A stretch of 34,902 nucleotides of DNA. It comes from a virus. Shown here piece by piece: positions 1,216 through 34,652 of this stretch. A model generated the notes under the pieces. The model was not told the DNA's origin, searched no databases, and was given only the letters and a program-made list of their open reading frames with translations. Each line of letters begins with the position of its first letter. The first letter of the stretch is position 1. A program made the position numbers and the translations under genes. The stretch is taken from positions 1 to 34,902 of the IMG/VR virus record IMGVR_UViG_3300006101_000032; one strand, 5' to 3'.

Positions 1216-1511
1216 ACTTCTCCGGTATCGTAGACTGGATTCGCAGGGCGTTATCCGAGTCCGACGGAACACCCTCTAGCCTTCGACCTCCTTTTTGGTT
1301 TCACGATTTCATCCTAGGGCTGTGCATTGTCTCCGTCGTGGTTTTTACACTTTGGTCGCATTACCACGACCCCAAGAATCCCTTTAATCCTACTGCGATT
1401 GGTGCTGTTTTGGCCGGATGGTTCACTATCAATAGAGGTAGCAAGATTGTTCAAAAGGGTGTTGAAGCAACTCCGGCTCAAGAAACTTCATCGCTCCCCT
1501 CAAAATTATGA
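1212..1511 (+). CDS. Holin-like small membrane protein (GTG start)
   Basis: The gene starts at GTG 1212 inside a GTGA overlap with the previous stop; no better ATG exists in frame. The 99 residues carry one clear membrane segment at about 33-48 (ILGLCIVSVVVFTLW) and a shorter one at about 60-73 (TAIGAVLAGWFTI), with charged ends. It lies immediately upstream of the endolysin gene and overlaps it by ATGA at 1508-1511. Size, predicted two-span topology and coupling to the endolysin make it the best holin candidate here, but this is inferred without recognisable homology. Confidence 0.5.
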   Translation: MNFSGIVDWIRRALSESDGTPSSLRPPFWFHDFILGLCIVSVVVFTLWSHYHDPKNPFNPTAIGAVLAGWFTINRGSKIVQKGVEATPAQETSSLPSKL

Positions 1512-2089
1512 CAATCCAAGAGATCTTGAATTACGCCGCAGAAGGGCAGTCTCCTAGGTTTGTTAAGTGGCTAGGTTTTGTCCTAGGGTGGGAGTGTGCT
1601 TACGAGTCGGATGGTGTGACTATTCGGATTGAAAATGTGCCAGGTGATAGTGGAGGAAGGACTGTTTGCGGCATTGATGAAGCCAGCCATCCGACGTTTC
1701 CTTTCGATAGCTGGACGGCGGAAGACGTTGTCCAGGCGTATTTGAAAGATGCTTGGAACTTTCTCTCTTCTTTGCAGTTTCCCGTTTGTGAAGTAGCCGC
1801 AAACTTTGCTGTCAACATGGGGCTAGGCAATTCAGTTAGGCTCCTTCAAGAAGCTATAGAGGCTCAAACTACAATCACCATCGATGGAAAACTTGGCCCC
1901 GATACCCTAGGATCCGCCAATCAAGTAAACCCTTATCGCCTAGCCGAGGACATAGAGTCAGCCGCAGACGCACGATATCGGAGAATTGCGTATAAGAATC
2001 CGGTAGACCGAAAGTTCCTTGCTGGGTGGCTGGCAAGGGATGTTTCACTTGATCACTGGTGGAAAAAACTTTCTGATTTAGAAAAGTAA
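1508..2089 (+). CDS. Endolysin, GH108-type lysozyme with peptidoglycan-binding domain
   Basis: The 193 residues fit the glycoside hydrolase 108 (secretion activator/phage lysozyme) family, which cuts peptidoglycan glycan strands. The N-terminal motif is W28-E29 followed by P45-G-D-S-G-G-R-T and G55-I, matching the family pattern of a Glu near residue 25-30 and a PxDxGGxTxxGI signature. E29 is the likely catalytic acid. The C-terminal half (FAVNMGLGNSVRLLQ, then DGKLGPDTLG) matches the predicted peptidoglycan-binding domain paired with GH108. No signal peptide is seen, so export would need the holin-like gene just upstream. ATGA overlap implies coupling. Family length (about 170-200) agrees. 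Confidence 0.85.
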   Translation: MTIQEILNYAAEGQSPRFVKWLGFVLGWECAYESDGVTIRIENVPGDSGGRTVCGIDEASHPTFPFDSWTAEDVVQAYLKDAWNFLSSLQFPVCEVAANFAVNMGLGNSVRLLQEAIEAQTTITIDGKLGPDTLGSANQVNPYRLAEDIESAADARYRRIAYKNPVDRKFLAGWLARDVSLDHWWKKLSDLEK

Positions 2090-2120
2090 TACTTGCATAA
2101 AAGGTTATTACATCCATATT
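2086..2120 (+). promoter_or_regulatory. Candidate promoter with inverted GTAATA/TATTAC arms
   Basis: TTGCAT (2093-2098) and CATATT (2115-2120) with a 16 bp spacer make a sigma70-like promoter for the gene at 2134, giving a leader of about seven bases. The arms GTAATA (2086-2091) and TATTAC (2106-2111) form an inverted repeat around the -35. The right arm, GGTTATTAC at 2103-2111, is the reverse complement of the TAATAACC motif used at other unit starts, so an operator is possible. Confidence 0.35.
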
Positions 2121-2133
2121 CCCTGCGACTCTC

Positions 2134-2970
2134 ATGGCAAAGAAAACCAAAGCAGTTAAACTGCCGCCAGTAAATCCTAGGATCGGAGGAGCCGTCGTTG
2201 TTTCCGATCTTCACTGCGGTTCTTCCGTGGGGCTATGGCCTGATGGTTTTGAAACTGAGACCGGAAATCAGATTAAGCTGGGTAACAATCTTCATCAGCA
2301 ATGGCTTTGGAAGTGCTGGCTTGATGCGGTCAATAAAGCTGTAAATCACTTTAAGGGCAGGCCGTTTGTCGTAATCGTCAACGGAGATTGTATCGAAGGC
2401 CGGCATCATGGGACTACCGAGATTGTAGTGGCAAAGAACATTGATCATGCCGCCGCCGCAACCGAATGTTTGCGCCCTCTTGTGGAGTCTTGTTTCAAGA
2501 CTTATTTTACCGCTGGTACTGAGTGCCATGTGGGAGACTTCGAGAAAGTCATCTGCAAAGAACTTGGCGGTGAGTGGTGTGGAGACAAGGGACTTATTGA
2601 GATTAACGGAACACTTCTTGACGTAGCTCATCATATGCCCACCGCAGGTCGTGCTTACCTTGAGGCCGGAGCCATGTCGATTACGATGGGCAACGCCAGA
2701 CTGAACTACGCTAGGGTAGGCCAGCGTGTCCCTAGGGTGTATCTACGAGGTCATCGCCACACAGGAGGATATTACTCGGATGGACACGCGCTGTTCCTAG
2801 TCACGCCAGCGTGGCAACTTCTTACCAGATACGGACACAAAGTAGTCGGAGACTCAATTTGCCGACCTGGCATTGCCATTCTGGATTGGGACGCCACTCC
2901 AGATGGAGGTCTTCCATCCACGCAACTATTGACTTATGACCCAGAAGAAAGTGAATCCACCCGAGCATGA
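2134..2970 (+). CDS. Calcineurin-like metallophosphoesterase
   Basis: This 278-residue protein carries the metal-binding signature of the calcineurin-like phosphoesterase superfamily in order: D25-x-H27 (VSDLHCGS), G84-D85 (VNGDCIEG), H166-H167 and G-H207-R-H209 (RGHRHTGG). The usual GNHE block is replaced by AGTECH ending at H132, so the metal-bridging Asn is not obvious. Such enzymes hydrolyse phosphodiesters or phosphomonoesters, and phage members may process nucleic acid or nucleotides. The substrate cannot be told. The start follows a promoter-like region, and the 3' end overlaps the next gene by 35 bases. It is soluble with no signal peptide. Confidence 0.75.
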   Translation: MAKKTKAVKLPPVNPRIGGAVVVSDLHCGSSVGLWPDGFETETGNQIKLGNNLHQQWLWKCWLDAVNKAVNHFKGRPFVVIVNGDCIEGRHHGTTEIVVAKNIDHAAAATECLRPLVESCFKTYFTAGTECHVGDFEKVICKELGGEWCGDKGLIEINGTLLDVAHHMPTAGRAYLEAGAMSITMGNARLNYARVGQRVPRVYLRGHRHTGGYYSDGHALFLVTPAWQLLTRYGHKVVGDSICRPGIAILDWDATPDGGLPSTQLLTYDPEESESTRA

Positions 2971-3257: not shown

Positions 3258-4037
3258 ATGCTTCTCATTCTTCCCATTAGCCGAATCGATTCTGGGTTGG
3301 CTTTACGACTAGCAAACTGGATTTCTACCCTAGGAGGCGGAGCTAACCATCATTTATTGGTTTCTTGCCCACTCAACCAGAAAAGCGTAGCTGAAGAAAT
3401 CCAGAACATCCTTAAAGGAACTTTTGCTTCTGCTGGAATTTACGTCCTTGATCAGGATCATGAGCTGGGTTGGCCTTCTTCCGCAAATTTCATGTTCAAG
3501 AAAACCGCGGGGTATGTCTACGCGAGAGGAAACCGTCTCCCTTTTTATTGGTTTGAAGCCGACAACGTACCCATGAAGTCTTCTTGGCTGGACGATCTCC
3601 AGACTGAGTACAACCTGGCACAGAAACCCTTTATGGGCGTCGTAGAAGATTCCATCGTAAGGAAGCCGGATACCAAAGAGTTCATTAGGAAGGACGGACA
3701 ACATATGAATGGAAGTGGAATCTACCCTGCAAATTTTGTTCGTGCCTCACAGCTATTTGATTCGATTCATACTCATAAGGAAGCACAGCCTTGGGATATC
3801 TATCTGCGCTGGGAAATGAAGGGTTGTATCCACAACAGCAAGCAGATGATCAACAACTGGAAGAGCAAGGAATACGTTCGCACTTCCGACGGAATGATCG
3901 CCTGCACGGCTATGGATCCCAATCACCCACCCAAGTATGTTACCGACGCTATTGCCGTTGTGCATGGGTGTAAGGACGAGTCTCTTATCGATCTTTTGGA
4001 GAACAAATCAGCCAAGCCCTCTAAGAAATCAAAGTAA
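3258..4037 (+). CDS. Putative GT-A fold glycosyltransferase-like protein
   Basis: The 259 residues open with a hydrophobic strand (MLLILPISRID) and contain a nucleotide-sugar-transferase-like core: PFYWFEADNVPM, in which E100-A-D102 resembles the DxD-type metal site, followed by a long acceptor region and PWDIYLRWEM. The C-terminus is Lys-rich. GT-A enzymes transfer sugars from nucleotide donors; in a phage the target could be phage DNA, a virion protein or host surface glycan. The stop overlaps the portal start as TAATG, so it is made with the portal. The family assignment is tentative and no donor can be named. Confidence 0.45.
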   Translation: MLLILPISRIDSGLALRLANWISTLGGGANHHLLVSCPLNQKSVAEEIQNILKGTFASAGIYVLDQDHELGWPSSANFMFKKTAGYVYARGNRLPFYWFEADNVPMKSSWLDDLQTEYNLAQKPFMGVVEDSIVRKPDTKEFIRKDGQHMNGSGIYPANFVRASQLFDSIHTHKEAQPWDIYLRWEMKGCIHNSKQMINNWKSKEYVRTSDGMIACTAMDPNHPPKYVTDAIAVVHGCKDESLIDLLENKSAKPSKKSK

Positions 4038-6397
4038 TGGAGATCTCGACTGCCCCTTTAGATATTGCTGGACTCGATCCAGTAACAGGAGAAGTTCCTG
4101 AACGTAGAGTTGCTGATGTAGATGCGGCTCGTAGCATCTACGACACCATTTGGACAAGCGATCTTGGTAGCTCAAAAAACCGTTCTTTGGTGGATGCCAT
4201 GTTTGGAGGTGCCCCTCCTTTCAATCCCGATGACCTAGTCGAAATCGGACAATCAGAAAGAACCAACATTGATTTCGGAATTGCCGCCGCAGTCAAAGAT
4301 CAGGCTTTAGCTCAGTATTACGATCTGACTTCGAGTGTTCCTCGCCTAGCCTCGGTTCATGTTGACTACGGAACGGATGAACAGCGGGTCGAATGGGAAG
4401 GGATTATCGCCGAAGAGTTCCATCATACGCTGATGAACTGGACGGAGTTTGAGTTCAACCATCAGCTTCTTTCAGACCAGTTTGTTTCACATGGAGTGGG
4501 AGTTGCTTACTTCGAGGATGAGACCGACTGGCGTTATCGTGTAACCGGACTCAATGAGTTCAAGATGCCCCGCGGAACAAAAGCCAGCGAGGCTGAGATT
4601 GAAGTTGCAACCGTGGAGCGTGAATACCTAGCCCATCAGCTTTATGCTTTTATCCGAAATCCTGAAGTAGCCGAGGAACTAGGATGGAATGTAGATATGG
4701 TAAAGCAGGCACTTATGCACGCCTGCCTCGCCACTCCTACCCCATATCTTGCTGACTGGGAAAAACTCGAAATCGAACTCAAGAACAACGATCTACTCTA
4801 TGGCAATTCCAAGGCCAAGAGGGTCAAGGTTGTCCATATGTGGGTTCAAGAGTTTTCAGGCAAAGTCTCTCACATGATTTTCCTTAAAGACCCGCTTCCG
4901 GCAGACACCGGATTCGGTGAGGCAAACGAGCAGTTCTTGTACGAGAAGTTCGAGCGTTTTGATGCCCCAACTCGTTGCTTTGTTACTTTCACCTACGGAA
5001 TTGGAAATGGTTGCTACCACGGAATTCGAGGACTTGGGTACAAGATTTACCCTCACATCCAGCTCATCAATCGTATGCGGTGTGGCATGAGTGATGGGGC
5101 TCTTCTGTCTTCCGCACTCATCGTCCAGCCCAGTGATGCCAGCACTCGTTCCCTAGAGGATCTGACGCTGAACTACTTTGGGCCTTACGCCCTTTTCCCT
5201 GCCGGCCTTAAAATCGTTGAAAAAGCGGTTCCTGATTTCCGCGCCAACATGATGCCGGTATTGGCAGACATGACGCAGACTCTTCAGAACAATACGATCG
5301 GGTTTCAGAGCCGTGCCATTACTCCCGAAGGACAAGCTCGCACCGCTTTTGAAGTCCGCGCCCAACTTCAACAAGAAGCAACTCTTACCAGTGCATCCAT
5401 CAACCTGTTCTACCATCCTTGGAAGCGTCTTCTTTGGGAGGTTTTTCGTAGACTCAGCCGCAGGGACTCTTCTCCTTTCGAGCCGGGTGGCAAGGAAGCG
5501 GTAGCGTTTAAGAAGCGTTGCATGGAGCGCGGTGTTCCTGCCGAGGCTATCTACCACGTTACTGCTGTTTGGCCTGTCCGTGCCGTCGGTAACGGGAGCC
5601 CCGCCATGCGTAGTCAGGTGCTTTCCCAGATGATGTCCATGTATGGTGCTCTCGATCAGGAAGGTCAGGCACATCTTCTACGAGACAACATTGCCGCACT
5701 TGTAGGTCAAGAAGCGGTTAATCGGTACGCCAAACCTATTGATCAACCTCTTCGTCCCCCTATTGACGATAAGATTGCTATTCTGGAAAACGCCACCATG
5801 AGCCACGGAACCACCATTCCCGTATCTCCTGGTGAAGATGACTTTATTCATGCCGGTCGTCACTTGCAGGCCCTTGACGAACTCGATCAAGCCCTAGGGC
5901 AGGGTCAAGCAGATCCCAAGGCTTCCCTTATGGCGATGGAAGCATTTTTGCCGCATACAGCACAACACGTTCAGAGACTAGGGCAAGACAAGCTACGAGG
6001 ACAGCAGGTAGGTTTGATGCGCCAGCGACTTCAGCAACTCAATGCAACTGCAAAGCGTTTGCAAGATCAGCTACAAGCCCAGCAGATCAACGCTCAGAAA
6101 GCCCAGCAGGCACAGGCTCAACGTAATGCAGAGCAACAACAGGCTCAGATAAAGATGCTTCAGCAGAAGGCCGCGGAAGCCGATGCGATGTCGCCAAAAC
6201 TGAAACAGCAGATTTTGGAAAGCCAAGCCAAGATGCAGATGGAAGCACAACGTCATCAGCAGGAGATGGCTTTGAAGCAAGCCGAAGTTTCTCAGAAGCT
6301 CGCTCTGCGAGATGCTGAAACCGCCGCTAAAGTTAAAGCCGCCGGTATGCCGGCAGTACCTACGACCGTCCCGATGGCTCAACCCGATCAGGAATAG
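4037..6397 (+). CDS. Portal (head-tail connector) protein
   Basis: The protein has 786 residues, the size of podovirus portals with a long C-terminal extension. The N-terminal two thirds is a mixed alpha/beta region with conserved-looking segments (FNHQLLSDQFVSHGVGVAYFED, then ITPEGQARTAFEVRAQLQQEA) typical of the portal wing and stem. From about residue 620 the chain is Gln/Ala-rich with heptad character, suggesting a long helical barrel or crown. Portals form the dodecameric ring through which DNA is packaged and ejected. Support is positional too: it precedes a scaffold-like and a capsid gene. No terminase gene lies beside it within the window. Its TAATG start overlaps the upstream stop. 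Confidence 0.7.
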   Translation: MEISTAPLDIAGLDPVTGEVPERRVADVDAARSIYDTIWTSDLGSSKNRSLVDAMFGGAPPFNPDDLVEIGQSERTNIDFGIAAAVKDQALAQYYDLTSSVPRLASVHVDYGTDEQRVEWEGIIAEEFHHTLMNWTEFEFNHQLLSDQFVSHGVGVAYFEDETDWRYRVTGLNEFKMPRGTKASEAEIEVATVEREYLAHQLYAFIRNPEVAEELGWNVDMVKQALMHACLATPTPYLADWEKLEIELKNNDLLYGNSKAKRVKVVHMWVQEFSGKVSHMIFLKDPLPADTGFGEANEQFLYEKFERFDAPTRCFVTFTYGIGNGCYHGIRGLGYKIYPHIQLINRMRCGMSDGALLSSALIVQPSDASTRSLEDLTLNYFGPYALFPAGLKIVEKAVPDFRANMMPVLADMTQTLQNNTIGFQSRAITPEGQARTAFEVRAQLQQEATLTSASINLFYHPWKRLLWEVFRRLSRRDSSPFEPGGKEAVAFKKRCMERGVPAEAIYHVTAVWPVRAVGNGSPAMRSQVLSQMMSMYGALDQEGQAHLLRDNIAALVGQEAVNRYAKPIDQPLRPPIDDKIAILENATMSHGTTIPVSPGEDDFIHAGRHLQALDELDQALGQGQADPKASLMAMEAFLPHTAQHVQRLGQDKLRGQQVGLMRQRLQQLNATAKRLQDQLQAQQINAQKAQQAQAQRNAEQQQAQIKMLQQKAAEADAMSPKLKQQILESQAKMQMEAQRHQQEMALKQAEVSQKLALRDAETAAKVKAAGMPAVPTTVPMAQPDQE

Positions 6398-7202: not shown

Positions 7203-8499
7203 CGCAAACCCCGAAACTAGCACCATGATTCCTCCTCCGCCTGATTTGGCAGAGTTCTCCAGCAAAGGAGATACCGGAGGAACACAATCGTTCGAGGCCG
7301 CCACCGCATTTGGTGCCGCCTTCGATAAACTAAAAGACGAGGGTAAGCTGACTTTTGACGAACCCGCTCCATCAACTCCGGCATCGGAAGCCAAAGCCCC
7401 TAGGGTGGACGATGATCCAGGTTTCAAACCCTCCGAGATTGTCAAAGAGGAGAAAGCTCCCGCCAAATCAAAAGTAAAAGAACCTGTAAAGGAAGAGACT
7501 AAATCCCCCGCGGATTCTGTTTTCCCTAGCGCAGAGGATCTCGCAAGCATCATTTCCCCCAAGAAAGATGAGGCTACGACTGCCGAAAGCGATGAGATTC
7601 CAGAGAACTTGAAGGGTGCTACCAAGAAAGCCCAAGAGGCTTGGAAGGAACAGCGTGAGGCCATCAAAGCCGAGAAAAAACGAGCTGATGAGCTTGCCGC
7701 TAGGGTAGCCGAGCTTGAGAAACAGAAGATCGACCCCACGGAACTTGAGCGTATTCGCAAAGTTAACGAAGAGTACGAACGCGAGCTTCAGGTAGTTCGA
7801 GTCGAAGCTACTCAGGAGTATAAAGAAGCCGTCTTGGTTCCTCTTTCTAAGGTTCAAGAGTCAGTCACTGGCCTTGCCACAAAGTACGATATCAGCCCCA
7901 AGGATCTCTTTGAATCACTTGCGGATCCAGAAGGCGATAAAATCACCGACCTAGCGGCTGGAATGAACGATCGTGATCGTTTCCGTCTGTACGAGATGGC
8001 GGATCAATTCTCGAAAGTTCGCACTATCCGTGACCGAGTTGTCAATAATGCCAAACTCGCCCTAGAGAAGATTAACGCCCACCGTGAGGAGCAGGCTAAG
8101 GTTCAGATGGAAGAGGGTAGTAAAGCTTACTCTCAAGCTATCGAAACCATTGGCAAAACAATCACCGAAGCCAGCCCTATCTTTAAGCGGGTCGAAGGAA
8201 ATGATGAGTGGAACAAACAGCTCGACGAGGCTGAAGCATTCGCTAGGAATGCACAGCTTCAAAGCCCTGATCCCGCTATTAGGGCAGGTATTGCTTGGAG
8301 AGCGGCTCTTTCGCCGATGCTCTTTAACCAAGTAACCAAGCTCTACAGCGAACTAAAGGAAGCCCAGTCACAGCTCGCCAAGTACACCAGTGCGAAACCG
8401 AAGGCTGGGGGAGGGGCATCACCTGCTGACGTAGCCGGTGGCGGTAAGCCTCAGTACGACGACTTCCTCGATGCCCTAAAAGGAGAACTCAGGTTTTAG
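7186..8499 (+). CDS. Acidic coiled-coil protein, probable head scaffold
   Basis: The protein has 437 residues. The first ~130 are low-complexity, rich in Pro, Ala, Glu, Lys and Ser. A long charged helix with heptad pattern follows at about 145-220 (AQEAWKEQREAIKAEKKRADELAARVAELEKQKI), then a helical region, and a Gly/Ala-rich linker with a short terminal helix (YDDFLDALKGELRF). Elongated acidic helical proteins with a C-terminal capsid-binding helix, encoded just before the capsid gene, are typical scaffolds. This assignment is by composition and position. I chose the ATG at 7186; M14 is an alternative. A long leader separates it from the capsid gene. Confidence 0.6.
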   Translation: MNPQTDANPETSTMIPPPPDLAEFSSKGDTGGTQSFEAATAFGAAFDKLKDEGKLTFDEPAPSTPASEAKAPRVDDDPGFKPSEIVKEEKAPAKSKVKEPVKEETKSPADSVFPSAEDLASIISPKKDEATTAESDEIPENLKGATKKAQEAWKEQREAIKAEKKRADELAARVAELEKQKIDPTELERIRKVNEEYERELQVVRVEATQEYKEAVLVPLSKVQESVTGLATKYDISPKDLFESLADPEGDKITDLAAGMNDRDRFRLYEMADQFSKVRTIRDRVVNNAKLALEKINAHREEQAKVQMEEGSKAYSQAIETIGKTITEASPIFKRVEGNDEWNKQLDEAEAFARNAQLQSPDPAIRAGIAWRAALSPMLFNQVTKLYSELKEAQSQLAKYTSAKPKAGGGASPADVAGGGKPQYDDFLDALKGELRF

Positions 8500-8520: not shown

Positions 8521-8556
8521 CCCTAGGGTTGTGACTTTATTGTTGCACCCTAGGGT
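8521..8556. repeat. Two CCCTAGGG palindromes 27 bp apart in the capsid leader
   Basis: Perfect octamers at 8521-8528 and 8548-8555 lie in non-coding DNA just after the scaffold gene. The second forms the start of the spacer between the -35 and -10 of the promoter at 8543-8573. Each copy is self-complementary and the two can pair with each other. Confidence 0.8.
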
Positions 8557-10062: not shown

Positions 10063-10070
10063 TTAGAACA

Positions 10071-10130
10071 GCCCCTCTACCTCAACTGCCCTAGAGCCTA
10101 CAAAGCCCTAGGGTAGCCAGGTGGAGGGGC
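10071..10130 (+). terminator. Strong hairpin terminator after the capsid gene
   Basis: GCCCCTCTACCT (10071-10082) pairs with AGGTGGAGGGGC (10119-10130), a 12-bp stem with one G-U pair, followed by CTTCTACTT. The 36-base loop contains a nested CCCTAG.../CTAGGG pairing and one full CCCTAGGG (10106-10113). The U-tract is weak, so it may act as a leaky terminator or an mRNA 3' stabiliser. Confidence 0.65.
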
Positions 10131-10544: not shown

Positions 10545-10557
10545 TCCCCTAGGGGAT
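10544..10557. repeat. 14-bp perfect palindrome overlapping a ribosome-binding region
   Basis: ATCCCCTAGGGGAT is a perfect palindrome centred on CCTAGG, between the stop at 10544 and the ATG at 10562. Its right arm, AGGGGA, is one of the few Shine-Dalgarno-like sequences here (five bases from ATG). Folding of the palindrome in RNA would hide it. Confidence 0.6.
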
Positions 10558-19742: not shown

Positions 19743-20213
19743 ATGAGCACTCCTGTAACTGTTAACATCTCTAATCAAGTATATGCGTATATGCCAAACA
19801 CGGCATTTTCCGCTGTCTACTCTACAACACCGGCAAATGTAACTTGCTCGGTAACCTACACTGATGCCCTAGGGAACGTAACGACATCAGCTCCTTCTGC
19901 CATAGGTAACTACACTGTTACGGTTACTCCGACTCAATCTGGGTACACGGGATCTGCCGCAACCGCTATAATGACAATTAGCATTGTTACCATTTTAGCT
20001 AAAAAGCGACCCATAGCCCATGTAGCTGATTCGGAAACCATGATTCTTAGACACTATCGGGCGATCCTTGAGACAGTTCAGTATATTCTCTCTGATGGAA
20101 AAGCCGGAACGCTCGACAGTCCTAAGCAACTTTTGGCGGCTCAAGTTAGCCAAAACTACTTTAAGCAGAACATGAACTCACCTCATAACAAACGAGTTGT
20201 CAGTTTCCGATAA
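19743..20213 (+). CDS. Ig-like N-terminal domain fused to a helical C-terminus
   Basis: This 156-residue protein has an N-terminal beta domain (about 1-80: NQVYAYMPNTAFSAVYST... GNYTVTVTPTQSGYTG) like bacterial or phage Ig/MBG-type repeats, followed by a helical segment (about 95-156: ADSETMILRHYRAILETVQYILSDG... LLAAQVSQNYF). Three bases separate it from the neck gene. It may decorate the neck or mediate assembly. The fusion is unusual and I do not recognise a whole-length family. Confidence 0.5.
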   Translation: MSTPVTVNISNQVYAYMPNTAFSAVYSTTPANVTCSVTYTDALGNVTTSAPSAIGNYTVTVTPTQSGYTGSAATAIMTISIVTILAKKRPIAHVADSETMILRHYRAILETVQYILSDGKAGTLDSPKQLLAAQVSQNYFKQNMNSPHNKRVVSFR

Positions 20214-24278: not shown

Positions 24279-27200
24279 ATGTCAGACGATACAAATTCTT
24301 TACTACAGGATCCTAATTGGTTGCAGAGTATCGGTCAGGAAATACCTGGTACTTCCGATGCGCCAGAGGATACCGCTCAATTATCTCTAGAGGAGAGGTT
24401 GGCAAGGACATCAGGAGGTATGCTCCCCCCTAAACCAACTTCGTTGGTCGGTGAGATCGGAAAAGGTATTGCCGCAGGAGCCCGTGATCTTTACGGAACA
24501 GCAGGAGGTTTGGTTGGACTGGCTGGAGATGCCCTAGGGAATCAGGACGTTAAAAATTTTGGATTGGGCATTTACCAAGATCAGCAGGAGGCCAATCAGC
24601 AGAACAATGCGCCGGCGGTATCGAGTATCGGAGAGGCAACAAAGAGCTTTGGAAACTTCGCTGACTACGCCGCCTACAATCTTTCAAAGGGACTCACGGA
24701 GATGGTTCCCATGCTTGCCGCCGGTGGAGTCGGTGGAGAAATCGCAGGTAGCCTAGCCGAAGGAGCCGTACAGAAGGCTGTCCAATACGGAGTTGAAAAG
24801 GGGCTTTCGCAAGAGGCCGCCGAGGCCGCAGTAGCCGCTTCTGTTCGTCAAGGCGGAGCAGAAAAAGCCGCTCAGAGTTTCAGCGAAGCCTTAGCCCCGA
24901 CGATGGGTGAAGACGCCGCCTCTAAGTTCGGTGAAGAAGCGTTTAAGGCACAATCCGCCAAGAACACGGCATCTTTTCTAGGGGCACAGGCCGGAAATGC
25001 CGCCACGATTATTCCTCAGTCCGTTGGTGATGAGTATGGGCAGACCAAAGACGCCGAGACTGCCCTAGGATATGGCACGGCAAGCGGAGCATTGAATGCT
25101 GTCGCTATGGGTATTGTTGCCGCTCCTGCTTTCCGATCCATGCTCGGAATCGGAACGGAAGCCGCCGCAAAGTCATCGTTCCTGAAGAGTGCCGCAACCC
25201 GCATCGGTACTGATACCGCTCTCATGGTAGGTCTTGCCTACCCTAGCACCTACCTGAATCAGGAGGCACAGGCATCGGTAGATCCAAGTTTCGATATCAA
25301 TAGCCCTGAAGCCCAGAAACAGCGCATGGAATCAGTAGCAGGCGGGGCTCTTCAAGGTGCCGCTTTTGGTGGACTAGGTTCCCTAGAGTTCCTGCATAAT
25401 ACTGCCCCCCTTACCGCAGACGCCCTTCAGAAGATAACTTTCACATCAAAGGGTGAACAACCTGCACTGACGCCAGAAAAACTACCGGACAACGCAACTC
25501 CTCACACGGTATCGCCGGAAGTTACCATCACGGATCCTCGTACCGGCGAAAGCATCAAGGCTCAGAAAAACAACACGGTCGGAAAATGGACGATCAATCA
25601 TCCAGATGGATCGATGACCATTCTGAATACCGAAGACCCCAATAACACCCATGCGGCTACCCTAGAGTTGCTGGCACAGGAGGAGTTGGACAAGCTCAAC
25701 AACAAATCAGAAGAAGATAACAACGAGAGTTCTGAATCTGAAAAGCTTCCAGTTGCGACTACCTCTGAACTGCCGGCGGACACATCCGAGTTCTACCCTG
25801 CTTCCTTCCCAACCGCATCGGGTCAGGCATTTGCCGGTCAGCCAGCGGAAGAATCAACCGCGGAGCCGGTATCCTCTACGGAAACCCCAACTGAAAAGCA
25901 GAAGTTTGCAGAAGCAGGCCAAGTCCTAGGACAACTTGCGGCTAACAAACAAGATACCAGGACGGAATTTCCTGTAGGAACAATCACTGAGTCAACCAGG
26001 GATCCAAACCTACTATCTTCAGCACTTCAAAAAGTAACAGGAATCGACCTAGGGTCACAGGTATCGGAGAAAAAAGCACAAGCCGATGCGGCTGTTGCCG
26101 CTTCTAAAACACCAGAAAACTTCACCCAAAACCTTCAGGTGGGTGATCCCGTATCCTTCGATCACCCAGAGCTAGGTAAAGTCGATGCAGTGGTCACACA
26201 GGCCGAAACCCCAAGCGAGCACGGACTGCCCGAAGCAGATTCAATAAAAGTTCAATATAATAACCCTGTAACCGGACGTAAAAAAACACAGGTTATTCCT
26301 CGCTCAAGCTGGAGTCGCATAGAGGCACCAAAGCCAGAGGTTCCGACAACGGATGAAATCGTAAATACCGCCCTAGGGGATAATCCAACACCTCAGAAAC
26401 TCCAGCAGTCAGGGATGTCCAACATCCGTGTTGAGGGCGATCAGCAAAGCCCAACGGCAGTATCGGGAGATATTGTTCTTAAAGATGGATTGCTTCCGTT
26501 CAATGAGAACAAGAATCGAGAGAATGACCCGATCCATGCACTGCTTGATGAAGCCGGAAAGACGGGAGATTACTCCAAGGTGGTCGCAACCGGAGCCCTG
26601 CCTGCTCGTTACGAATCAAAATCAAAAAAAACCCACGGAATTTGGACGGGCGGTGAGCTTTCTTCTGCAGATCGGATTGCCCTACTTAACGCGGAAGATG
26701 GCGTTACAGACGGAGGAAGATCAGCTTCAAAGGCGCAAGAAATAAAGAACAGATTAGAAAAAGTAAAAGAAACCACGGTTCGGCAGATGAACCAAGGTCT
26801 ACGGGTTCTTGCTCCGAAAGGATCGATTGCGCCTCCTGGATTTGAATTTACCAAGCTACCAAATGGCTTGATGCAAGTTACCGCTGTTCACGATTACCTT
26901 GGAACATCATGGAGAATGCGAGGAGCTTTGGATCCGGTAATGACCAAAGCTAATGGTCATCCTACCTACTTTCCAGGAAAGCCAGACACGTTCAGCGTGG
27001 ACGTTCCAGTTGGGATCAAAGGCAAATACAGCCAGAAGCGAGGGCCGGACATACTTACAACTAGGTTCAATACGCCAGGTCTTCGTGCAGAGCGGTCTGA
27101 TATTGCCCGTGAAGGTCACATTACCCGCAGGGAGAATCAGGAAAATTCTGAAAACTCGGAGATCCAAAAGAACCCTCTGAACCATACCGAGTCGCAACTG

Positions 27201-30200
27201 TTAAACACGGTGGCGGGTCGTGCCCTAGAGCATATCGATAACAGCACTTTCCGAGATTCAGTTAAGGAAGAAGCCAAGTCTGGGGTCGTGCCACGCCTTG
27301 CTCGTGATATCCGCAAGAGCGGAAGAAAAGCACCTGAACCTAAAAACGATACCCAGAAGTCTTTGACTTCAATGCTGTTCTCAAACATAGCGAGGATCGC
27401 ACGAGCCAAGATTGAAGGTGCATCCGACAAGGCTGATGAGGCGGTTGTCCGTGCCGAACAACGAGGTGTAGGTCGTGCAGGTAAAAGCGAAAAAGGCGAA
27501 AAGGGAGTTCCGCTTATGCGGAAGGTCAATGGATCCGTGCAAGAAGACGATCTCGCAACCGCAAAGAACCTTTCTTCAGGTCTTCTAGAAAAAGGGATCA
27601 AGGTACAAGACTCAGACTACACAAGCGAAGGTCTAAGGAAAATTGAACAGCACTTTAAGGATACGCTAAACAAGGGTGCCGAAGAAACAGACTATACCAC
27701 CAAGCAGTTGATGGGCATGGAAGCCCTCCTAGAGAAAATAAAAAACAGAACTTTCAACAGGGATGACTTTAGATCTGCCGTAGAGCAAAAGCTGATAGAC
27801 GCACCAAAGTCATATACTGTAGCCAGAGGAGATGTAGAATCTTCAATCGCAGGGAAAACAATACCAGGATCATCTGGAACACCTGGCGGTGGAACACTTT
27901 CCGGTAGCGACGCTTCAAAAATAGAAGAACGTATCCGTAATAATGCAGGCCGTAAGTTGACCGATAAGGAATACTCGCAGGCAGTTCAGTCTACCCTAGA
28001 ACAGGCCAAACAGCGTCAAATGAAACTGACCAAGGCCGACAAGACTCATCTCACTTCGGTGATGGAATATCACAAGGTGGCGGCTCCTAGGTTGTCGGAA
28101 AACAATGTTTACGCCGCATCAAAACAGGCACTTCTCAAGGCTAATGAGAAAACTAAAACTGCCGGCGCACGATCACGGACGTTCTTATCCATTGACGACC
28201 CAAACACAGGGTTGTCAGACCTTCACGATGAAGGGGATACCCGCATCGAAGGCGATAATTTTTCAGAGCAAACTACCGACACACAGCCTAAGCCTGTAAG
28301 CGACGCAAATCAGGGAGACACAGTTCTAAAAAGTCTTTCTGATCTTCCAGATGGTGTGGGTAGCGACACTCATCCAGCATTCCAAGGTCTACCAAAAGCA
28401 AGTAGTGACTTTATCGATAAAGTCGGAATGGATGCACTAGAGCTTCACGAAGCCTTGATTGCGTCGAACAAAAAGTCAAATCTCACCAAGGCTCAACGCA
28501 ACACTTGGAACAAAATTAAGAAAGAAATTTATGATAACGAAACCAACAGAAGAAACGGAGGAGCCAGAGGTTCCGATGTCCAAGTCGGCGAGGGTTCAAC
28601 TCCTGTCTCTGGCGATGGCGAAAGCACATCCGACGGATTGGAAAGCCCTGCCAGATCAAGTGAAAATGAAGCTACAGCAGGGGGATCAGTCGGGTCTGGC
28701 GGATCTACTGAAGACACAGCCGGAAGCGTTTCAGCATCCGATGCTACAGCACCACGAGGATTCAGCTTGGGAGCATCTCCTGAGCAATCCAGAGCCCTCT
28801 CAGCCGCAGTAAAGAGCCGACTCGTTCAGTCGGCAGGGCGACTCTCCGATGCGGAGATCGCAAAGATGTCGCCTGAAGAGATCGACAAAGCGCATACCGC
28901 GCTAACCACGCAGGCCGACTCAAGCTCGGCCCATGCTAATGAGCGCATTGAAAGTGCCGCTCCTAGGGTGGAGGATGTGGTCAACAAAACCCTAGGAGAA
29001 CTTGTAGCCGGTGCCAGGGAGGAAAGTATCAGGAGAACGCCTGCCGAAAGGGCACAGATCATCCGTAAAAACTACGCAGACCTGATTCGCTCTGGTGCTT
29101 TCCGTTCCCCTGCCGAATTCCTCACTAGGGTGGCTTCCGGTAAACTAGAAGGAGTTCCTAGCGATCTCGCCCTTGTAGCTCGAACCATGTTGTCGGGAAC
29201 CAAGGTTGACTGGAACAAAGTTGCCACGCAGATCGGTCGCTTCACCGACAAGACCAGCCCCACAGGAGAAGCTCCTTGGAGCGGACTGGCGACAAAGCAG
29301 GGCAAAGGACACAACGTAGCCCTTAACCTGAACGCCCAAGCCGATAGGGGAATCATCGGAACGTATATCCACGAACTCCTCCATACGGTAGAGCGAGACA
29401 AGATCACGGGTAAAACAAAGCTAAACCCAACCGAATCCAAGGCACTTGATGAAATCAAGTCAGCCTACAAAGCTTTTTTGGATCGTGCGGGGATTGCCGG
29501 AACTCCCGCCGAGATCGAAGCCAAAGCCCGTGAAATGTCTCAGGGCAAAGGCGAGAACGATTACGGATATACTTTCCTGCGTAGCCCGGAAGAATTTGTC
29601 CGGGGAATCCAGGAGAGCCCGGATCTCCATGCCCTAGGGCAGTCCCTGGGATTGGATTACGGAGACGGCAAAGGCCCTCTGAAAGGTACCGCACGCAAGG
29701 TTTACGGAGCACTTACAGAGCTGGTCTCTGGGCGCAAAGCAGATCAAAACTCCCCTCTGGTTCGTGCTTTCAGTTCTGCATTTGACCTGACGCATAGCAA
29801 TCCTAGGGAGAACAAAGCATCTCCGTTGCACGCAGAGATGAAGGGCTACGAGCGTCGTGAATCATGGATCAGGGATCAGATCGAACAACGCAACCTACGC
29901 GGAACGACCAATGATAGGACGGCTCTGATCAAGGAGTGGAACTCCAAGGAAGGAATTAAAGACGTAGAGCCGGCCAAGGAGAATTCAAGTGGAGAAACAT
30001 CTCCCAAGGAAACACCAACTCCGACGGACACAAAGAAGCCGGATGAGGAGGAGCCGCCTGCGCCACCAGCCGGATCAGATAAGGGGCCTGAACCAGAGCC
30101 TCCTACTCCTGAACCCCCGAAGCCAAAACGAGGAAGGCCAAAGAAAGAAAGCACTCCGGTAGAGCGTAAGCAGGTGGCTGAAATAGCACCGGCACCTGAA

Positions 30201-33200
30201 CCCCCTAGGGTGGAGCAGAAAACCGAAAAGCCGGCTGTCCAGGCAAAGAATGAGGAGGAGCCTGGAGAAACTTACTCGCAAGCAGATCTCCAACGACTTG
30301 CCGCTACTGCATCTTATGAGGAGTGGAAGAAAGCCGCTCAATCGGACGCTTCGGAGTGGGGTGGGGCTCCTACAAAAGAAGCGTACAGTGCAATGAAAAA
30401 GGTGGGGGCTCGTATGCTTGCCGGCAAGGAAACTCCTTTGGAGTCACCAGCTCGCGAGTCCCTAGGGGAATCGATGTTGCGCCTAGGGCGCGAGAAGGGT
30501 CAGGACATGTTCCGTCTCCCCCAAGAACTCTCAAAGAGTGATGACCTGACGGAGGTTCTGAATTCCACGGGTAGCAAATTCTCTTCATTCGATGCCTATG
30601 GCATGAAGCTGATTTCTGAAACCCCGATCAAAGGAGATATGGTTCTTTTCCCTGCTACCGACGGAAAGAGAAACGATGGATACTCTGACGGAAAAGTAAT
30701 CAAAGCCGAGAACGGCGTCCTTACGATTCGCCCAACAGACAAAAGCCCAGACTTTCAACTGCCAGAAACACAGGCGGTTGCCGCAAAGGGATCAGTTCGT
30801 CTGTACGATGATTCAGTACCTCACAGCGAAAAAGATAGCCTGACAATCGATTCTTCCGACGGAGCCAACGGAACAATCCGTAAGGCTTCCAGCATTTATC
30901 AAGCGATCTACCAATGGGCTCACAACACCGGACAGAAGGTAGTTCCTGACACGACGACCTCATGGGCGGGTCATTTCCGTAGGAACGCACAACAGATCTC
31001 ATCTGCAATACGAAACCAAGATGCAGAGCATTTCCGGCCTACCATCGATCAGCGTAGCCGGATGTTCCCAAACCTCGACAAGGATGGATCCCTGCGTAAA
31101 TGGGAGAGCCTAGATACCGCAGGAAAAGTCTCCGCTTTAATGCGTGCCGAGAAGAGTTATATTGAACAAGCCGCACCCGAACTTGTCTCACATAGCTATG
31201 ACCCAGCCACAGGAAACTTTACCGACGAGAACGGAGCATCAGTATCCATTCACGACATCCGAAGCAGAATTACTGAGGGACTTGCAGAGACGAAAAATGA
31301 CGGGACTCCTGACCCTTTCCGAGTCGGAGAGGCAAGTCTTAGGAGATATCTGGGTGCGACGAGACCCGCGCTTGAAAACGCTGACGGACTCACAGCTTAC
31401 AGCGCAGATAATAGCGGACATCTAGACAAAGCCCTTTATTCGGAGGAACGCCCTAGTGTCGTCAGGGACACATTAAGGAAGGTCGGTTCGATCATCCCAG
31501 AGGGGGCAAAGGAAACGCTATTTGGTAAAGACATCTCCTCCTACAACGGAGTGAAAACTAGGTTGGCCGGACTCTTTACCGGCCCAGACAAGGGCGTAAA
31601 CAAAAACGTATCGTTCAGTCACCAAGTGGCTCAGGGCATCAAGCTGAAGGCCGAGAACCACATCAAGTACGCAAATAGGTTGTGGTCTGAAGCCCTGAAG
31701 AACGATTACGGCAATAAGATATCCGAAGCGCAGTTGCTTGAAGCACGAACCGCCCTAGGAAACTACGGGAATCCCCTGACCGACCTTGACGTAAAACGTG
31801 TCAACGAGGAGCAGGCAAAGAACGGGAGCGAGGCGGCAATCAAACTCGCCAGGGAACTTACGCAAAAGAATCGTGAAACTTACCGGGACGAACAACAAAA
31901 AGCTCTGGATTCGCTACCCCCTAGGGCACGGGCGGCTATCGTTTCTTTCCGTGATGGCATTGACTCGTTGCAACAGGAGTTAATCCGGCAGGGCGTGGTC
32001 AGTGGTGATCTCAAGGCTACCCTAGAGGAGAATCATGGAATCTATATTACCCGATCCTACGACCATCTGGATGCCGGTTTGACCCATGACGACATGGTCA
32101 AGAAGAACCCAGAGCTGGCACGCCGTATGGAGACCAGCACCCGTAACTTTTTGGCAAAGGAAAGGGCGCCGGAGATTCTTAACGAGAACCGCAAGGCCGG
32201 CGGAACAATGACAAAAGAGGAGGCACTTCAAGTTGCCAAGGATCAGGTTACAGAGGAAGAGGTTCACGATTCGTTGAACAGGCTTCTAAACCCTAGGGAG
32301 AATTCTTTGGATCGCCGGTTCACGATTGGACAGTTCCCTGGTCAAAAAGACCTGAGCACTTTCCTGAAACGCGGAAACCTAGAGGATGACCTCAAGCAGT
32401 ACCTAGGGGAGCGAAAGGATCCTGCAACTATCGCCGCAGACACAATGGGCAGGCAGGCCGCAGTTCTGGCAAATCATAAGTTCCTTTCAGACCTTCGGGA
32501 GTCCGGCCTCAAGGATGGTTCGCTATATGATCCGGCAGATCCAAAGAACAAAGGTAGGTCAATCCCTCACAAGTACGTTCCTATCGCTTCGATCAATAAC
32601 GAATCATTGGCTCCGCTCAACGGCCTCTTTATCCAAAAAGAAATCGGTGATGGACTGCTTCGGATGCTCCCTAGGATGGGCGCAAGCGACACGCCTTGGT
32701 TGCTCGATCTCTTCAAGAAAGTCACGGGTTACTCGATGGGCGCAAAGACCCAGTTCTCGCCGGCGGCGCAGGTTCGTCACAATGTATCCAACCTCCTAGG
32801 GTTGGTGACCACCGCCAACTGGCATGGTGGCCTAGTTCCAAAAAACCTGAAGGAAGCGTATGGTAAGATCAATCCGTTCAGCTCCCTAGAGGACGCACGC
32901 AACAATCTTCCAGAGATCCAAAGGCTAACCGAGCTAGGTCTGCTCCACCAGTCAGAGGCAAACCGCCTGCTACATGAACTCATCGATGGTAATGAGAACG
33001 GAAAACAGACTCCCCTAGGGGACTTCCTACGCAAGATTGCCTCCCCGCTGAACAAGATCGGGGATACCGATATCCGTGGCGTGAAGCTAAAGCATCTCCC
33101 TGAAACCCTGTACGGAGTTTCGGATGCGGCTTACAAGGTTGCCATCTTCTACGGCGAGCGTCAGAAATACGCAAACGCCCACCCAGAATGGACGCCGGAG

Positions 33201-34433
33201 CAGGTAGATCAGAAGGCGGCTCAGATCGCCCTAGATTGTCACTGGAGCTATGACCGATCGCCGGCGATCGTAAAGGAACTCTCCAAGGTTCCTATCGTTG
33301 CCCCGTTCGTTCGTTTCAGCTCCGAGGTTTATCGTACCAGCTACAACCTGCTGAAGTTGGCACATGACGAGATCAAGGAAGGCAATGCCACCGGAAACGC
33401 GGAGCTTACCAAGATGGGCTGGGATCGTATGCGTGGTATCGCAACGGTCGCCCTAGGGCCGTCCGCCCTGATTGCCATGACTCAGGCCGCAAGTGGCATG
33501 ACCGACGAGGATCAGGAGGCTCTCCGTAAATTCCTACCTGAATGGCAGAAGAATGCTCAGATCATTCCTTTCCAGAAGGCCGATGGAAAGGTCGGGTACT
33601 TCGATCTCTCATGGTGGGATCACTATAAGATTCTTCGCACCCCGATCAAGGCGGTGATCCGTGCGTTCTCCAACGATGAGGGCGACTTTGGAAAAGGACT
33701 CCACGACGCAATGATCGACGGAATGGGAGAACTCTTTCAGCCCTTCGATAAGGAACAGCTTACGACCAGTGCGATCATGGACATTGCTCGTAACAAAAAC
33801 TCAGCCAATGGAGCACCGCTTTACAACCCGCAGGACTCGGCGGCAAACATCGGTCTTGCAGTCACCAACCGCTTGTGGACTGCCCTAAGCCCAGGTGCTA
33901 TCGACAGCATAAATCGTATTTACAAGGGTGCTACTGGCTATGTTTCAGACAGCGGACGCTCCTACGATGCCGGTCAGGAAATTGCCAACATGGTTGGATG
34001 GCGTGCGGCTGACATGAACCTTGCAAACTCGTTGCATTTCACGGGATCCCAGTTCATGCAACAGAGTGCAAACGCTTCACAGCTATTGTCGCACGCCGCA
34101 ACAAGCATCGGCTCTAGGACGGAACCGCAGGTTACCCAAGGGTACAAGCAAGCGAATGAGGCTCACCAAGCCCTAGTGCAGGATCTACGCACAAAGTACG
34201 AGGCGGCAATCCAGCTCGGCATGAGCCCAGAGCAGATACAGACCGCCCTCAAGGGAGCTAGAGTATCTCAGGATGTCATCGACCAAGTTACCAGTGCGAC
34301 TTACAAGAGATTCCAACCTAGTGCGGCATCGATCAAGCTACTCCAGAGCAGGGGTCAAGACGACCGAGTGCAGTGGTTGCAGAACGCAATCAACGCCACG
34401 CCGGAAACAGTAAACCTCAACCTAGGGCACTAG
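24279..34433 (+). CDS. Giant polyvalent virion protein with metallopeptidase, AT-hook and LPD38-like domain
   Basis: The gene encodes 3384 residues. About 70-330 is Ala/Gly-rich with hydrophobic helices, like membrane-inserting ejection proteins. About 620-670 is a small SH3-like beta unit (VGDPVSFDHPELGKVDAVV). H1698-E-L-L-H1702 (IHELLHTVE) with a downstream SPEEF segment matches the zinc metallopeptidase of phage polyvalent proteins. An AT-hook core R1951-G-R-P follows in a Pro/Lys-rich linker. From about 2824 (TQFSPAAQVRHNVSN) to 3015 (P3009-FVRF) it fits the LPD38 large polyvalent-protein-associated region. Such proteins are carried in the capsid and injected to counter or take over the host. 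No RNA polymerase motifs of the N4 type were seen. Confidence 0.75.
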   Translation: MSDDTNSLLQDPNWLQSIGQEIPGTSDAPEDTAQLSLEERLARTSGGMLPPKPTSLVGEIGKGIAAGARDLYGTAGGLVGLAGDALGNQDVKNFGLGIYQDQQEANQQNNAPAVSSIGEATKSFGNFADYAAYNLSKGLTEMVPMLAAGGVGGEIAGSLAEGAVQKAVQYGVEKGLSQEAAEAAVAASVRQGGAEKAAQSFSEALAPTMGEDAASKFGEEAFKAQSAKNTASFLGAQAGNAATIIPQSVGDEYGQTKDAETALGYGTASGALNAVAMGIVAAPAFRSMLGIGTEAAAKSSFLKSAATRIGTDTALMVGLAYPSTYLNQEAQASVDPSFDINSPEAQKQRMESVAGGALQGAAFGGLGSLEFLHNTAPLTADALQKITFTSKGEQPALTPEKLPDNATPHTVSPEVTITDPRTGESIKAQKNNTVGKWTINHPDGSMTILNTEDPNNTHAATLELLAQEELDKLNNKSEEDNNESSESEKLPVATTSELPADTSEFYPASFPTASGQAFAGQPAEESTAEPVSSTETPTEKQKFAEAGQVLGQLAANKQDTRTEFPVGTITESTRDPNLLSSALQKVTGIDLGSQVSEKKAQADAAVAASKTPENFTQNLQVGDPVSFDHPELGKVDAVVTQAETPSEHGLPEADSIKVQYNNPVTGRKKTQVIPRSSWSRIEAPKPEVPTTDEIVNTALGDNPTPQKLQQSGMSNIRVEGDQQSPTAVSGDIVLKDGLLPFNENKNRENDPIHALLDEAGKTGDYSKVVATGALPARYESKSKKTHGIWTGGELSSADRIALLNAEDGVTDGGRSASKAQEIKNRLEKVKETTVRQMNQGLRVLAPKGSIAPPGFEFTKLPNGLMQVTAVHDYLGTSWRMRGALDPVMTKANGHPTYFPGKPDTFSVDVPVGIKGKYSQKRGPDILTTRFNTPGLRAERSDIAREGHITRRENQENSENSEIQKNPLNHTESQLLNTVAGRALEHIDNSTFRDSVKEEAKSGVVPRLARDIRKSGRKAPEPKNDTQKSLTSMLFSNIARIARAKIEGASDKADEAVVRAEQRGVGRAGKSEKGEKGVPLMRKVNGSVQEDDLATAKNLSSGLLEKGIKVQDSDYTSEGLRKIEQHFKDTLNKGAEETDYTTKQLMGMEALLEKIKNRTFNRDDFRSAVEQKLIDAPKSYTVARGDVESSIAGKTIPGSSGTPGGGTLSGSDASKIEERIRNNAGRKLTDKEYSQAVQSTLEQAKQRQMKLTKADKTHLTSVMEYHKVAAPRLSENNVYAASKQALLKANEKTKTAGARSRTFLSIDDPNTGLSDLHDEGDTRIEGDNFSEQTTDTQPKPVSDANQGDTVLKSLSDLPDGVGSDTHPAFQGLPKASSDFIDKVGMDALELHEALIASNKKSNLTKAQRNTWNKIKKEIYDNETNRRNGGARGSDVQVGEGSTPVSGDGESTSDGLESPARSSENEATAGGSVGSGGSTEDTAGSVSASDATAPRGFSLGASPEQSRALSAAVKSRLVQSAGRLSDAEIAKMSPEEIDKAHTALTTQADSSSAHANERIESAAPRVEDVVNKTLGELVAGAREESIRRTPAERAQIIRKNYADLIRSGAFRSPAEFLTRVASGKLEGVPSDLALVARTMLSGTKVDWNKVATQIGRFTDKTSPTGEAPWSGLATKQGKGHNVALNLNAQADRGIIGTYIHELLHTVERDKITGKTKLNPTESKALDEIKSAYKAFLDRAGIAGTPAEIEAKAREMSQGKGENDYGYTFLRSPEEFVRGIQESPDLHALGQSLGLDYGDGKGPLKGTARKVYGALTELVSGRKADQNSPLVRAFSSAFDLTHSNPRENKASPLHAEMKGYERRESWIRDQIEQRNLRGTTNDRTALIKEWNSKEGIKDVEPAKENSSGETSPKETPTPTDTKKPDEEEPPAPPAGSDKGPEPEPPTPEPPKPKRGRPKKESTPVERKQVAEIAPAPEPPRVEQKTEKPAVQAKNEEEPGETYSQADLQRLAATASYEEWKKAAQSDASEWGGAPTKEAYSAMKKVGARMLAGKETPLESPARESLGESMLRLGREKGQDMFRLPQELSKSDDLTEVLNSTGSKFSSFDAYGMKLISETPIKGDMVLFPATDGKRNDGYSDGKVIKAENGVLTIRPTDKSPDFQLPETQAVAAKGSVRLYDDSVPHSEKDSLTIDSSDGANGTIRKASSIYQAIYQWAHNTGQKVVPDTTTSWAGHFRRNAQQISSAIRNQDAEHFRPTIDQRSRMFPNLDKDGSLRKWESLDTAGKVSALMRAEKSYIEQAAPELVSHSYDPATGNFTDENGASVSIHDIRSRITEGLAETKNDGTPDPFRVGEASLRRYLGATRPALENADGLTAYSADNSGHLDKALYSEERPSVVRDTLRKVGSIIPEGAKETLFGKDISSYNGVKTRLAGLFTGPDKGVNKNVSFSHQVAQGIKLKAENHIKYANRLWSEALKNDYGNKISEAQLLEARTALGNYGNPLTDLDVKRVNEEQAKNGSEAAIKLARELTQKNRETYRDEQQKALDSLPPRARAAIVSFRDGIDSLQQELIRQGVVSGDLKATLEENHGIYITRSYDHLDAGLTHDDMVKKNPELARRMETSTRNFLAKERAPEILNENRKAGGTMTKEEALQVAKDQVTEEEVHDSLNRLLNPRENSLDRRFTIGQFPGQKDLSTFLKRGNLEDDLKQYLGERKDPATIAADTMGRQAAVLANHKFLSDLRESGLKDGSLYDPADPKNKGRSIPHKYVPIASINNESLAPLNGLFIQKEIGDGLLRMLPRMGASDTPWLLDLFKKVTGYSMGAKTQFSPAAQVRHNVSNLLGLVTTANWHGGLVPKNLKEAYGKINPFSSLEDARNNLPEIQRLTELGLLHQSEANRLLHELIDGNENGKQTPLGDFLRKIASPLNKIGDTDIRGVKLKHLPETLYGVSDAAYKVAIFYGERQKYANAHPEWTPEQVDQKAAQIALDCHWSYDRSPAIVKELSKVPIVAPFVRFSSEVYRTSYNLLKLAHDEIKEGNATGNAELTKMGWDRMRGIATVALGPSALIAMTQAASGMTDEDQEALRKFLPEWQKNAQIIPFQKADGKVGYFDLSWWDHYKILRTPIKAVIRAFSNDEGDFGKGLHDAMIDGMGELFQPFDKEQLTTSAIMDIARNKNSANGAPLYNPQDSAANIGLAVTNRLWTALSPGAIDSINRIYKGATGYVSDSGRSYDAGQEIANMVGWRAADMNLANSLHFTGSQFMQQSANASQLLSHAATSIGSRTEPQVTQGYKQANEAHQALVQDLRTKYEAAIQLGMSPEQIQTALKGARVSQDVIDQVTSATYKRFQPSAASIKLLQSRGQDDRVQWLQNAINATPETVNLNLGH

Positions 34434-34436
34434 GGC

Positions 34437-34652
34437 ATGAGTCTCTGGGGCGAGGATAGTTCCATCACTCCTCCCGGAGGGTGGTACTACATTCAACCGG
34501 GAACCCGGTTCAGGTTCGAGGCTAATACCCTAGGGCAACTGGAGGATAAGGTTTCGGCCCACCGGCGGGGAAATAACATCACCCTAGGGCACCCTAGGGA
34601 GGATATCCTGGCGTGGACGCGTTCCCGCCTGGGTGGTGAAGAAGTGCTCTAG
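34437..34652 (+). CDS. Small conserved-looking phage protein
   Basis: The 71 residues (PPGGWYYIQPGTRFRFEA, then LEDKVSAHRRGNNI) resemble a class of small phage proteins of unknown function with a GGWxYxxPxxG strand and an HRxxN helix. It starts three bases after the giant gene. Three CCTAGG copies lie within it (34529, 34583, 34593). The frame ends at TAG 34650-34652, but an alternative frame beyond it looks coding (see 34653-34902), so its true C-terminus is uncertain. Confidence 0.6.
   Translation: MSLWGEDSSITPPGGWYYIQPGTRFRFEANTLGQLEDKVSAHRRGNNITLGHPREDILAWTRSRLGGEEVL

Follow-up and report, generated by a model that had tools for sequence, protein, structure and literature searches.

DNA uptake sequences of the Neisseriaceae and Pasteurellaceae are short words, found in genes and hairpins alike, that recur roughly every kb. 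They are asymmetric and serve transformation. The stoperators of L5-like mycobacteriophages, short sites dispersed across the phage genome, are also asymmetric; they are mostly intergenic and oriented with transcription. A third iterated word, the octameric palindrome HIP1 (GCGATCGC, core CGATCG), was described in 1995, according to a citation in a later paper (Robinson et al., cited in PMC1939737). Its function has been unsettled since then, and it has been regarded as peculiar to cyanobacteria. HIPs reach densities of 500-2500 per Mb, and the near-misses of HIP1 are biased to its outer positions (Elhai 2015, PMC4390886). The same study, from which CCTAGG is absent, describes alternate cyanobacterial HIPs, for each of which there is a methyltransferase that may be cognate, and proposes that methyl-directed repair works as a ratchet. 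Some host phages share HIP1. Nostoc phage N1, which encodes cytosine methyltransferase genes (PMC4916379), has 33 GCGATCGC in 50 kb, compared to 0.2 expected, and Nostoc phage A1 has 23 in 40 kb. The stretches read of Anabaena phage A-4L, Microcystis phage LMM01 and Phormidium phage WMP4 carry 0 or 1. The phages of HIP1-rich cyanobacteria fall into those that share HIP1 strongly, such as N1 and A1, and those without any CGATCG, such as A-4L (0 sites).

Here we analysed a linear, incomplete virus record of 34,902 bases without end repeats, termed the window. It contains many copies of the 8-letter palindrome CCCTAGGG (core CCTAGG), for which the best reading is a HIP-class element of new sequence, apparently outside cyanobacteria. 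The original prediction named HIP1 as the nearest parallel; this was the right comparison, and HIP1 is the only close parallel. Both are octameric palindromes dispersed within genes in both stop-free codon phases. Typical of the HIP class are also the excess of CCCTAGGG over composition, Markov and codon expectations, and its dispersal in genes without shared flanks. At 802 octamers per Mb the window falls within the density range of HIPs, a likeness confined to the window's lineage (240-390 per Mb in most other members of its clade). Differences from HIP1 are the sequence itself, relatives that point to Verrucomicrobiota rather than cyanobacteria, the lack of a cognate methyltransferase among the families searched (see below) and a centre variant, CCCTGGGG, in part of the clade. 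Loci belonging to the window's lineage contain no GCGATCGC, and other relatives contain 0-3 copies. DNA uptake sequences are likewise short iterated words, but CCCTAGGG is palindromic and found in phages. It is dispersed across a phage genome as stoperators are, yet palindromic, and 53 of the 57 CCTAGG sites (counting ORF 34437-34652) lie inside ORFs. In the open-access literature we found neither CCCTAGGG nor CCTAGG described as an iterated palindrome; GCCTAGGC is named merely as an under-represented palindrome (PMC1939737).

Excess of the palindrome in the window

The exact counts in the window, 57 CCTAGG (spanning 1313 to 34593) and 28 CCCTAGGG (spanning 2730 to 34592), agree with the original prediction, and base composition leads one to expect 8.3 and 0.5, respectively. 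An order-2 Markov model expects 9.1 and 0.4, and an order-3 model 20 and about 1.3-1.4. With orders 4-5 the expectation rises to as many as 51.6 hexamers and 18.3 octamers, values that are partly circular because these fits already include the inflated words. Under the order-3 model, CCCTAGGG is the top over-represented 8-mer of the window (z 32). That the sites saturate the genome, as had been claimed, is too strong a wording for an incomplete linear contig.

Codon or composition bias of the ordinary kind can hardly account for these numbers, and neither can the spread of a small mobile repeat. CTA-Leu codons are frequent in the window (171), but when synonymous codons were shuffled 300 times over its 24 ORFs, coding DNA never had more than 4 octamers (0.61 +/- 0.78), compared to the 21 observed, or more than 14 hexamers (6.5 +/- 2.7), compared to 50. 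Codon bias is thus excluded as the cause of the excess, and the predicted over-representation stands against both backgrounds. A mobile repeat family was rejected, since the flanks outside the octamer share no sequence and the sites of the window differ in flanks and in reading phase. We also rejected an extended palindrome as the real unit: the flanking bases, judged by eye, are complementary no more than expected.

As predicted, both stop-free codon phases of CCTAGG are in use (Leu-Gly about 2:1 over Pro-Arg), and four sites are non-coding (8522, 8549, 10107 and 10548). All four are octamers (p about 0.05). The sites at 34529, 34583 and 34593 fall within the small conserved ORF 34437-34652, and a pair similar to the last two of them is found in the relative G238 at 46013-46024, 3' of its giant gene. 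Spacing of the sites in the window is near random (CV 0.8). Leu-Gly and Pro-Arg dipeptides are not consistently enriched in octamer-rich proteomes, and the sites therefore enter proteins by synonymous codon choice. Together with the shuffles, this supports the earlier view that selection or bias acts on DNA and not on protein. The accompanying statement that CTAG is normally rare applies to the palindrome-free relatives of the window, in which CTAG is depleted (133, compared to 222 expected) and CCTAGG depleted further (3, compared to 11.7). It does not apply to the window, where CTAG is not depleted (167, compared to about 118-135 expected).

A GTAATAACCnCATAAC-like motif lies shortly upstream of genes of the window (206, 3232, 6397, 8701, 13223, 18474 and others). 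It has 14 matches with at most 3 mismatches, compared to 5.9 expected, recurs in relatives and is possibly a promoter or leader motif.

Table 1. Palindrome sites, genes and structures of the window, numbered from its first letter.
Feature	Position	Strand	Remark
Field of 57 CCTAGG, 28 within CCCTAGGG octamers	1313..34598		
CCCTAGGG	2730..2737		coding, Pro-Arg phase
Portal-like gene, 786 aa, conserved	4037..6397	+	by size and position
CCCTAGGG	5892..5899		coding, Leu-Gly phase
CCCTAGGG	7398..7405		coding, Pro-Arg phase
CCCTAGGG	8521..8528		non-coding; hairpin arm upstream of capsid-like gene, pairs with 8548..8555
CCCTAGGG	8548..8555		non-coding; second arm of the hairpin with 8521..8528
Capsid-like gene, 444 aa, conserved	8728..10062	+	query for relatives
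Strong two-part stem-loop 3' of capsid-like gene	10070..10130	+	predicted fold, -44.9 kcal/mol for an 80-nt stretch
CCCTAGGG	10106..10113		non-coding; within the stem-loop
CCCTAGGG	10547..10554		non-coding; directly before start codon at 10562
CCCTAGGG	11661..11668		coding
CCCTAGGG	13086..13093		coding
CCCTAGGG	14393..14400		coding
CCCTAGGG	17549..17556		coding
CCCTAGGG	18563..18570		coding
CCCTAGGG	19478..19485		coding
CCCTAGGG	19867..19874		coding
CCCTAGGG	20749..20756		coding
CCCTAGGG	21505..21512		coding
Polyvalent protein, 3,384 aa, LPD37 domain	24279..34433	+	many CCCTAGGG sites inside
CCCTAGGG	24532..24539		coding (polyvalent protein)
CCCTAGGG	26371..26378		coding (polyvalent protein)
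CCCTAGGG	29632..29639		coding (polyvalent protein)
CCCTAGGG	30203..30210		coding (polyvalent protein)
CCCTAGGG	30460..30467		coding (polyvalent protein)
CCCTAGGG	31919..31926		coding (polyvalent protein)
CCCTAGGG	32291..32298		coding (polyvalent protein)
CCCTAGGG	33013..33020		coding (polyvalent protein)
CCCTAGGG	33451..33458		coding (polyvalent protein)
CCCTAGGG	34528..34535		in small conserved ORF 34437-34652
CCCTAGGG x2	34582..34599		10 bp apart, in ORF 34437-34652

Distribution and maintenance in one phage clade

No relatives of the window were found among named phage records, at the DNA and protein level, or among plasmid records, and an Rfam search gave no match. Relatives were sought with the conserved gene at 8728-10062, whose product has no match in Pfam or PHROG and which we infer, from its position and conservation alone, to be a capsid protein; the 786-aa product of 4037-6397 would be portal-like. 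Homologues of the capsid-like gene were recovered at 48 loci in viral contigs. Three loci represent the same phage at 100% identity (contigs from the metagenomes IMG 3300003813, 3300025379 and 3300025783), and together with G012 they extend its genome to about 47 kb. G012 has 34 CCCTAGGG in 41.9 kb, and the added part is as rich in the octamer as the window. Of 34 tested records, 17 carry 2-34 CCCTAGGG and G238 carries 6; the 16 palindrome-free sister records have 0 in 945 kb. Throughout the clade CCCTAGGG recurs about every 1,200 to 4,000 letters, which exceeds chance by a factor of tens. In a tree of 31 distinct homologues of the capsid-like gene (11 with and 20 without the octamer) the octamer label changes once, on a branch with 100/100 support, compared to a mean of 9.3 changes with shuffled labels. 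Thus, among the homologues of this gene, CCCTAGGG is restricted to one well-supported phage clade. The branch of the window is long, and its membership of the clade is surer than its exact place inside. Because gene order is the same in the clade as in its palindrome-free sister, the two make up a comparative system for gain and loss of the element.

In G238, 35 CCTAGG are confined to 33-66 kb. Only 5 of its hexamers lie in the 39 kb that can be aligned to sister phages, compared to 30 in the other 32 kb, which shows that G238 is either recombinant or was assembled as a chimera. In a scan of viral contigs for two copies of CCCTAGGG, local repeats predominate among the matches listed. Two low-GC viral contigs, L007 and L042, contain several CCCTAGGG pairs about 20 bp apart, which suggests operator-like paired sites unrelated to the clade of the window.

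The sites are maintained within the clade. In pairwise alignments, which offer few sites per pair (7-23), G013 and G014 (86% nucleotide identity) retain octamers at a rate of 0.70, compared to 0.42 for 8-mers of equal GC, 0.43 for 8-mers 16-40 nt away and 0.20 for other CTAG sites. Clade pairs at about 72% identity retain 0.20-0.50 of their octamers, compared to 0.00-0.13 for controls. Retention of the octamer was better in 10 of 10 pairs in one analysis and in 14 of 15 in another, the exception being L131/L162. The comparison of related phages left the original prediction unrefuted.

Near-miss variants differ between lineages. In the window, variants with one change at the outer positions 1-2 and an intact CTAG are frequent (42, compared to 5.4 expected), and those with a change at the inner positions 3-4 are rare (1, compared to 5.2). 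G015-G017 broadly follow the window, with CTCTAGGG, CGCTAGGG, TCCTAGGG and C[TG]CTAGGG; the bias in the window resembles that of HIP1. In G013/G014 it is the centre that varies instead (50 CCCTGGGG/CCCCAGGG, compared to 4.3 expected), and G238 prefers CCCTAGGA and TCCTAGGA, in its 33-66 kb region only.

Finally, the stem-loop 3' of the capsid-like gene is found in all relatives examined. Most sister records have TTCG as its apical loop, a C(UUCG)G tetraloop, or else a loop of 7 bases. In G013-G017 the apex is CC(CTAG)GG, that is CCCTAGGG, on top of unrelated stem sequences, whereas the inner arms of the window's stem-loop hold the octamer together with a near-copy. By comparison of these predicted folds, the octamer replaces the UUCG loop in most of the clade, L135 being a member without it, and it occupies a position where a palindrome leaves the stem intact.

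Bacterial genomes and the probable host

When 84,980 species genomes were scanned for three close octamers, most matches were local repeats, and dispersed sites occurred in one genome, that of Hymenobacter polaris (G001), which has 3,302 CCCTAGGG in 5.6 Mb and 0 copies of the reversed control word. Among 204 Hymenobacteraceae genomes, G101 and G117 come next, at 902 to 916 octamers each; a few others range from 50 to 180, and about 10 is usual in the remainder. H. polaris has 31 times, and G101 10 times, the expected number of octamers. The core CCTAGG, which is that of the window, is iterated genome-wide in H. polaris and its two relatives. The differences are that their iterated unit is the hexamer, with variable, species-specific flanks (ACCTAGGG, GCCTAGGG), and that it resides in bacterial chromosomes of another phylum, in a family whose 204 genomes yielded no relative of the phage. 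The three genomes thus hold a HIP-like element in Bacteroidota that is missing from most of their relatives.

The original prediction suggested that shared enrichment could identify the host. An iterated palindrome does exist in Hymenobacter, but the portal-like profile had no match in the 204 Hymenobacteraceae genomes and translation-start signals differ, and Hymenobacter was rejected as the host. The profile clearly matches the Verrucomicrobiota genome G440 (E 8e-39). There, at about 96-132 kb of contig 3, a prophage-like region of about 35 kb carries distant homologues of the window's phage family, including helicase/exonuclease, terminase-like, portal-like and other phage proteins. This makes Verrucomicrobiota the probable host phylum. 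This nearest prophage carrier lacks the shared enrichment, having only 14 CCCTAGGG. None of 388 sampled Verrucomicrobiota genomes is enriched (maximum 48), nor is any of 398 sampled Pseudomonadota (maximum 60, with the control word equally frequent there). A host whose octamer density equalled that of the window would very likely have been caught by the three-copy scan, and the host is thus either unsampled or less dense in CCCTAGGG than its phage.

Candidate recognising proteins and explanations

A matching methyltransferase had been anticipated, and the search for one was negative: no member of PF00145, PF01555, PF02384 or PF07669 is common to the three enriched Hymenobacter or separates them from ordinary ones. 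Neither is any m5C methyltransferase common to the phage clade, in which G014 alone has one. A methyltransferase-like protein of 1,118-1,143 aa is present in G001, G101 and G136 and has no match in G117.

The explanation we favour, tentatively and at somewhat less than an even chance, is that CCCTAGGG is a HIP-class element of one tailed-phage clade which is made and protected by a sequence-specific process, likeliest a host modification or repair process. The octamer would then be the recognition site of a process in the infected cell that creates and protects sites on phage DNA. The likeliest candidate would be host DNA modification or methyl-directed repair, as proposed for HIP1. Such a regime would act on all resident DNA, and the phage lineage would bear the signature of its host, as N1 and A1 bear HIP1. 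Three observations count against a host regime: the lack of a palindrome-rich host among the Verrucomicrobiota and Pseudomonadota sampled, the avoidance of HIP1 by some phages of HIP1-rich hosts, such as A-4L, and the absence of a methyltransferase common to the clade or distinguishing the enriched Hymenobacter. Moreover, the lineage-specific tolerated variants (CCCTGGGG as opposed to C[TG]CTAGGG) count against a fixed palindromic methyltransferase.

The same variants resemble the drifting specificity of a protein, as would be expected if the octamer were bound by a protein that the phage itself encodes, of a genome-organising, partition or repressor-like kind, and had spread through the phage genome and drifted along with that protein. 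Consistent with this unlikely but serious alternative, non-coding octamer density is about 2 to 7 times the genic one (individually significant in 4 of 8 records; 2.4 and 0.7 per kb in G012, 1.4 and 0.3 in G013), and the palindrome-free sister G246 has a different iterated word, CTCTGGGA/TCCCAGAG (20, compared to 2.9 after codon shuffling). Most octamers, however, are intragenic and spaced almost at random, and a search for conserved DNA-binding genes confined to the clade was negative, with the genome of the window's lineage partly missing. The CCTAGG core in Hymenobacter chromosomes would also be left unexplained. A role as recombination or repair signal for the phage's own module, for example a clade-specific Hjc/RusA-like resolvase, appears more doubtful. 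It draws on a PDDEXK_15/Hjc-like nuclease (6607-6954 in G013) that is 86-94% identical within G013-G017 and 38-40% identical to that of octamer-free relatives, a sharper break than for the polymerase or the terminase-like protein. G013 also encodes a tyrosine recombinase, at 8006-9211. All 28 loci with this nuclease at at least 77% identity carry CCCTAGGG, and two at 48% carry none. The association is suggestive but confounded, since the nuclease tracks the clade by descent and is not independent of it. Furthermore, the available sequence of the window's own lineage does not extend to the nuclease-bearing part, and Chi-like signals are usually asymmetric, whereas CCCTAGGG is a perfect palindrome. 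It is quite improbable that the sites are kept as a protection or disguise against host restriction, modified CCTAGG being a mark of self. CCTAGG is the AvrII/BlnI/XmaJI site (PMC1939737), CTAG is avoided in the octamer-free relatives, and one third of all CTAG in G013/G014 sits within CCCTAGGG. Protection only lifts a cost, though, which alone would not drive a 20- to 70-fold excess, and no restriction-modification gene common to the clade was found.

If a host modification or repair process is indeed responsible, CCCTAGGG should be frequent in the chromosome of the host and may then serve as a host marker. A second HIP-like element of different sequence offers small phage genomes with sharp contrasts of presence and absence for finding the recogniser. 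We give close to an even chance to a broader proposition, namely that HIP-type palindromes are general and arise outside cyanobacteria with other sequences, CCTAGG having done so separately in a few Hymenobacter and in the hosts, probably verrucomicrobial, of the phage clade. The H. polaris loci L362-L381 also contain another over-represented word, which is GCATCTCTAC-like (60, compared to 3) and probably an interspersed repeat.
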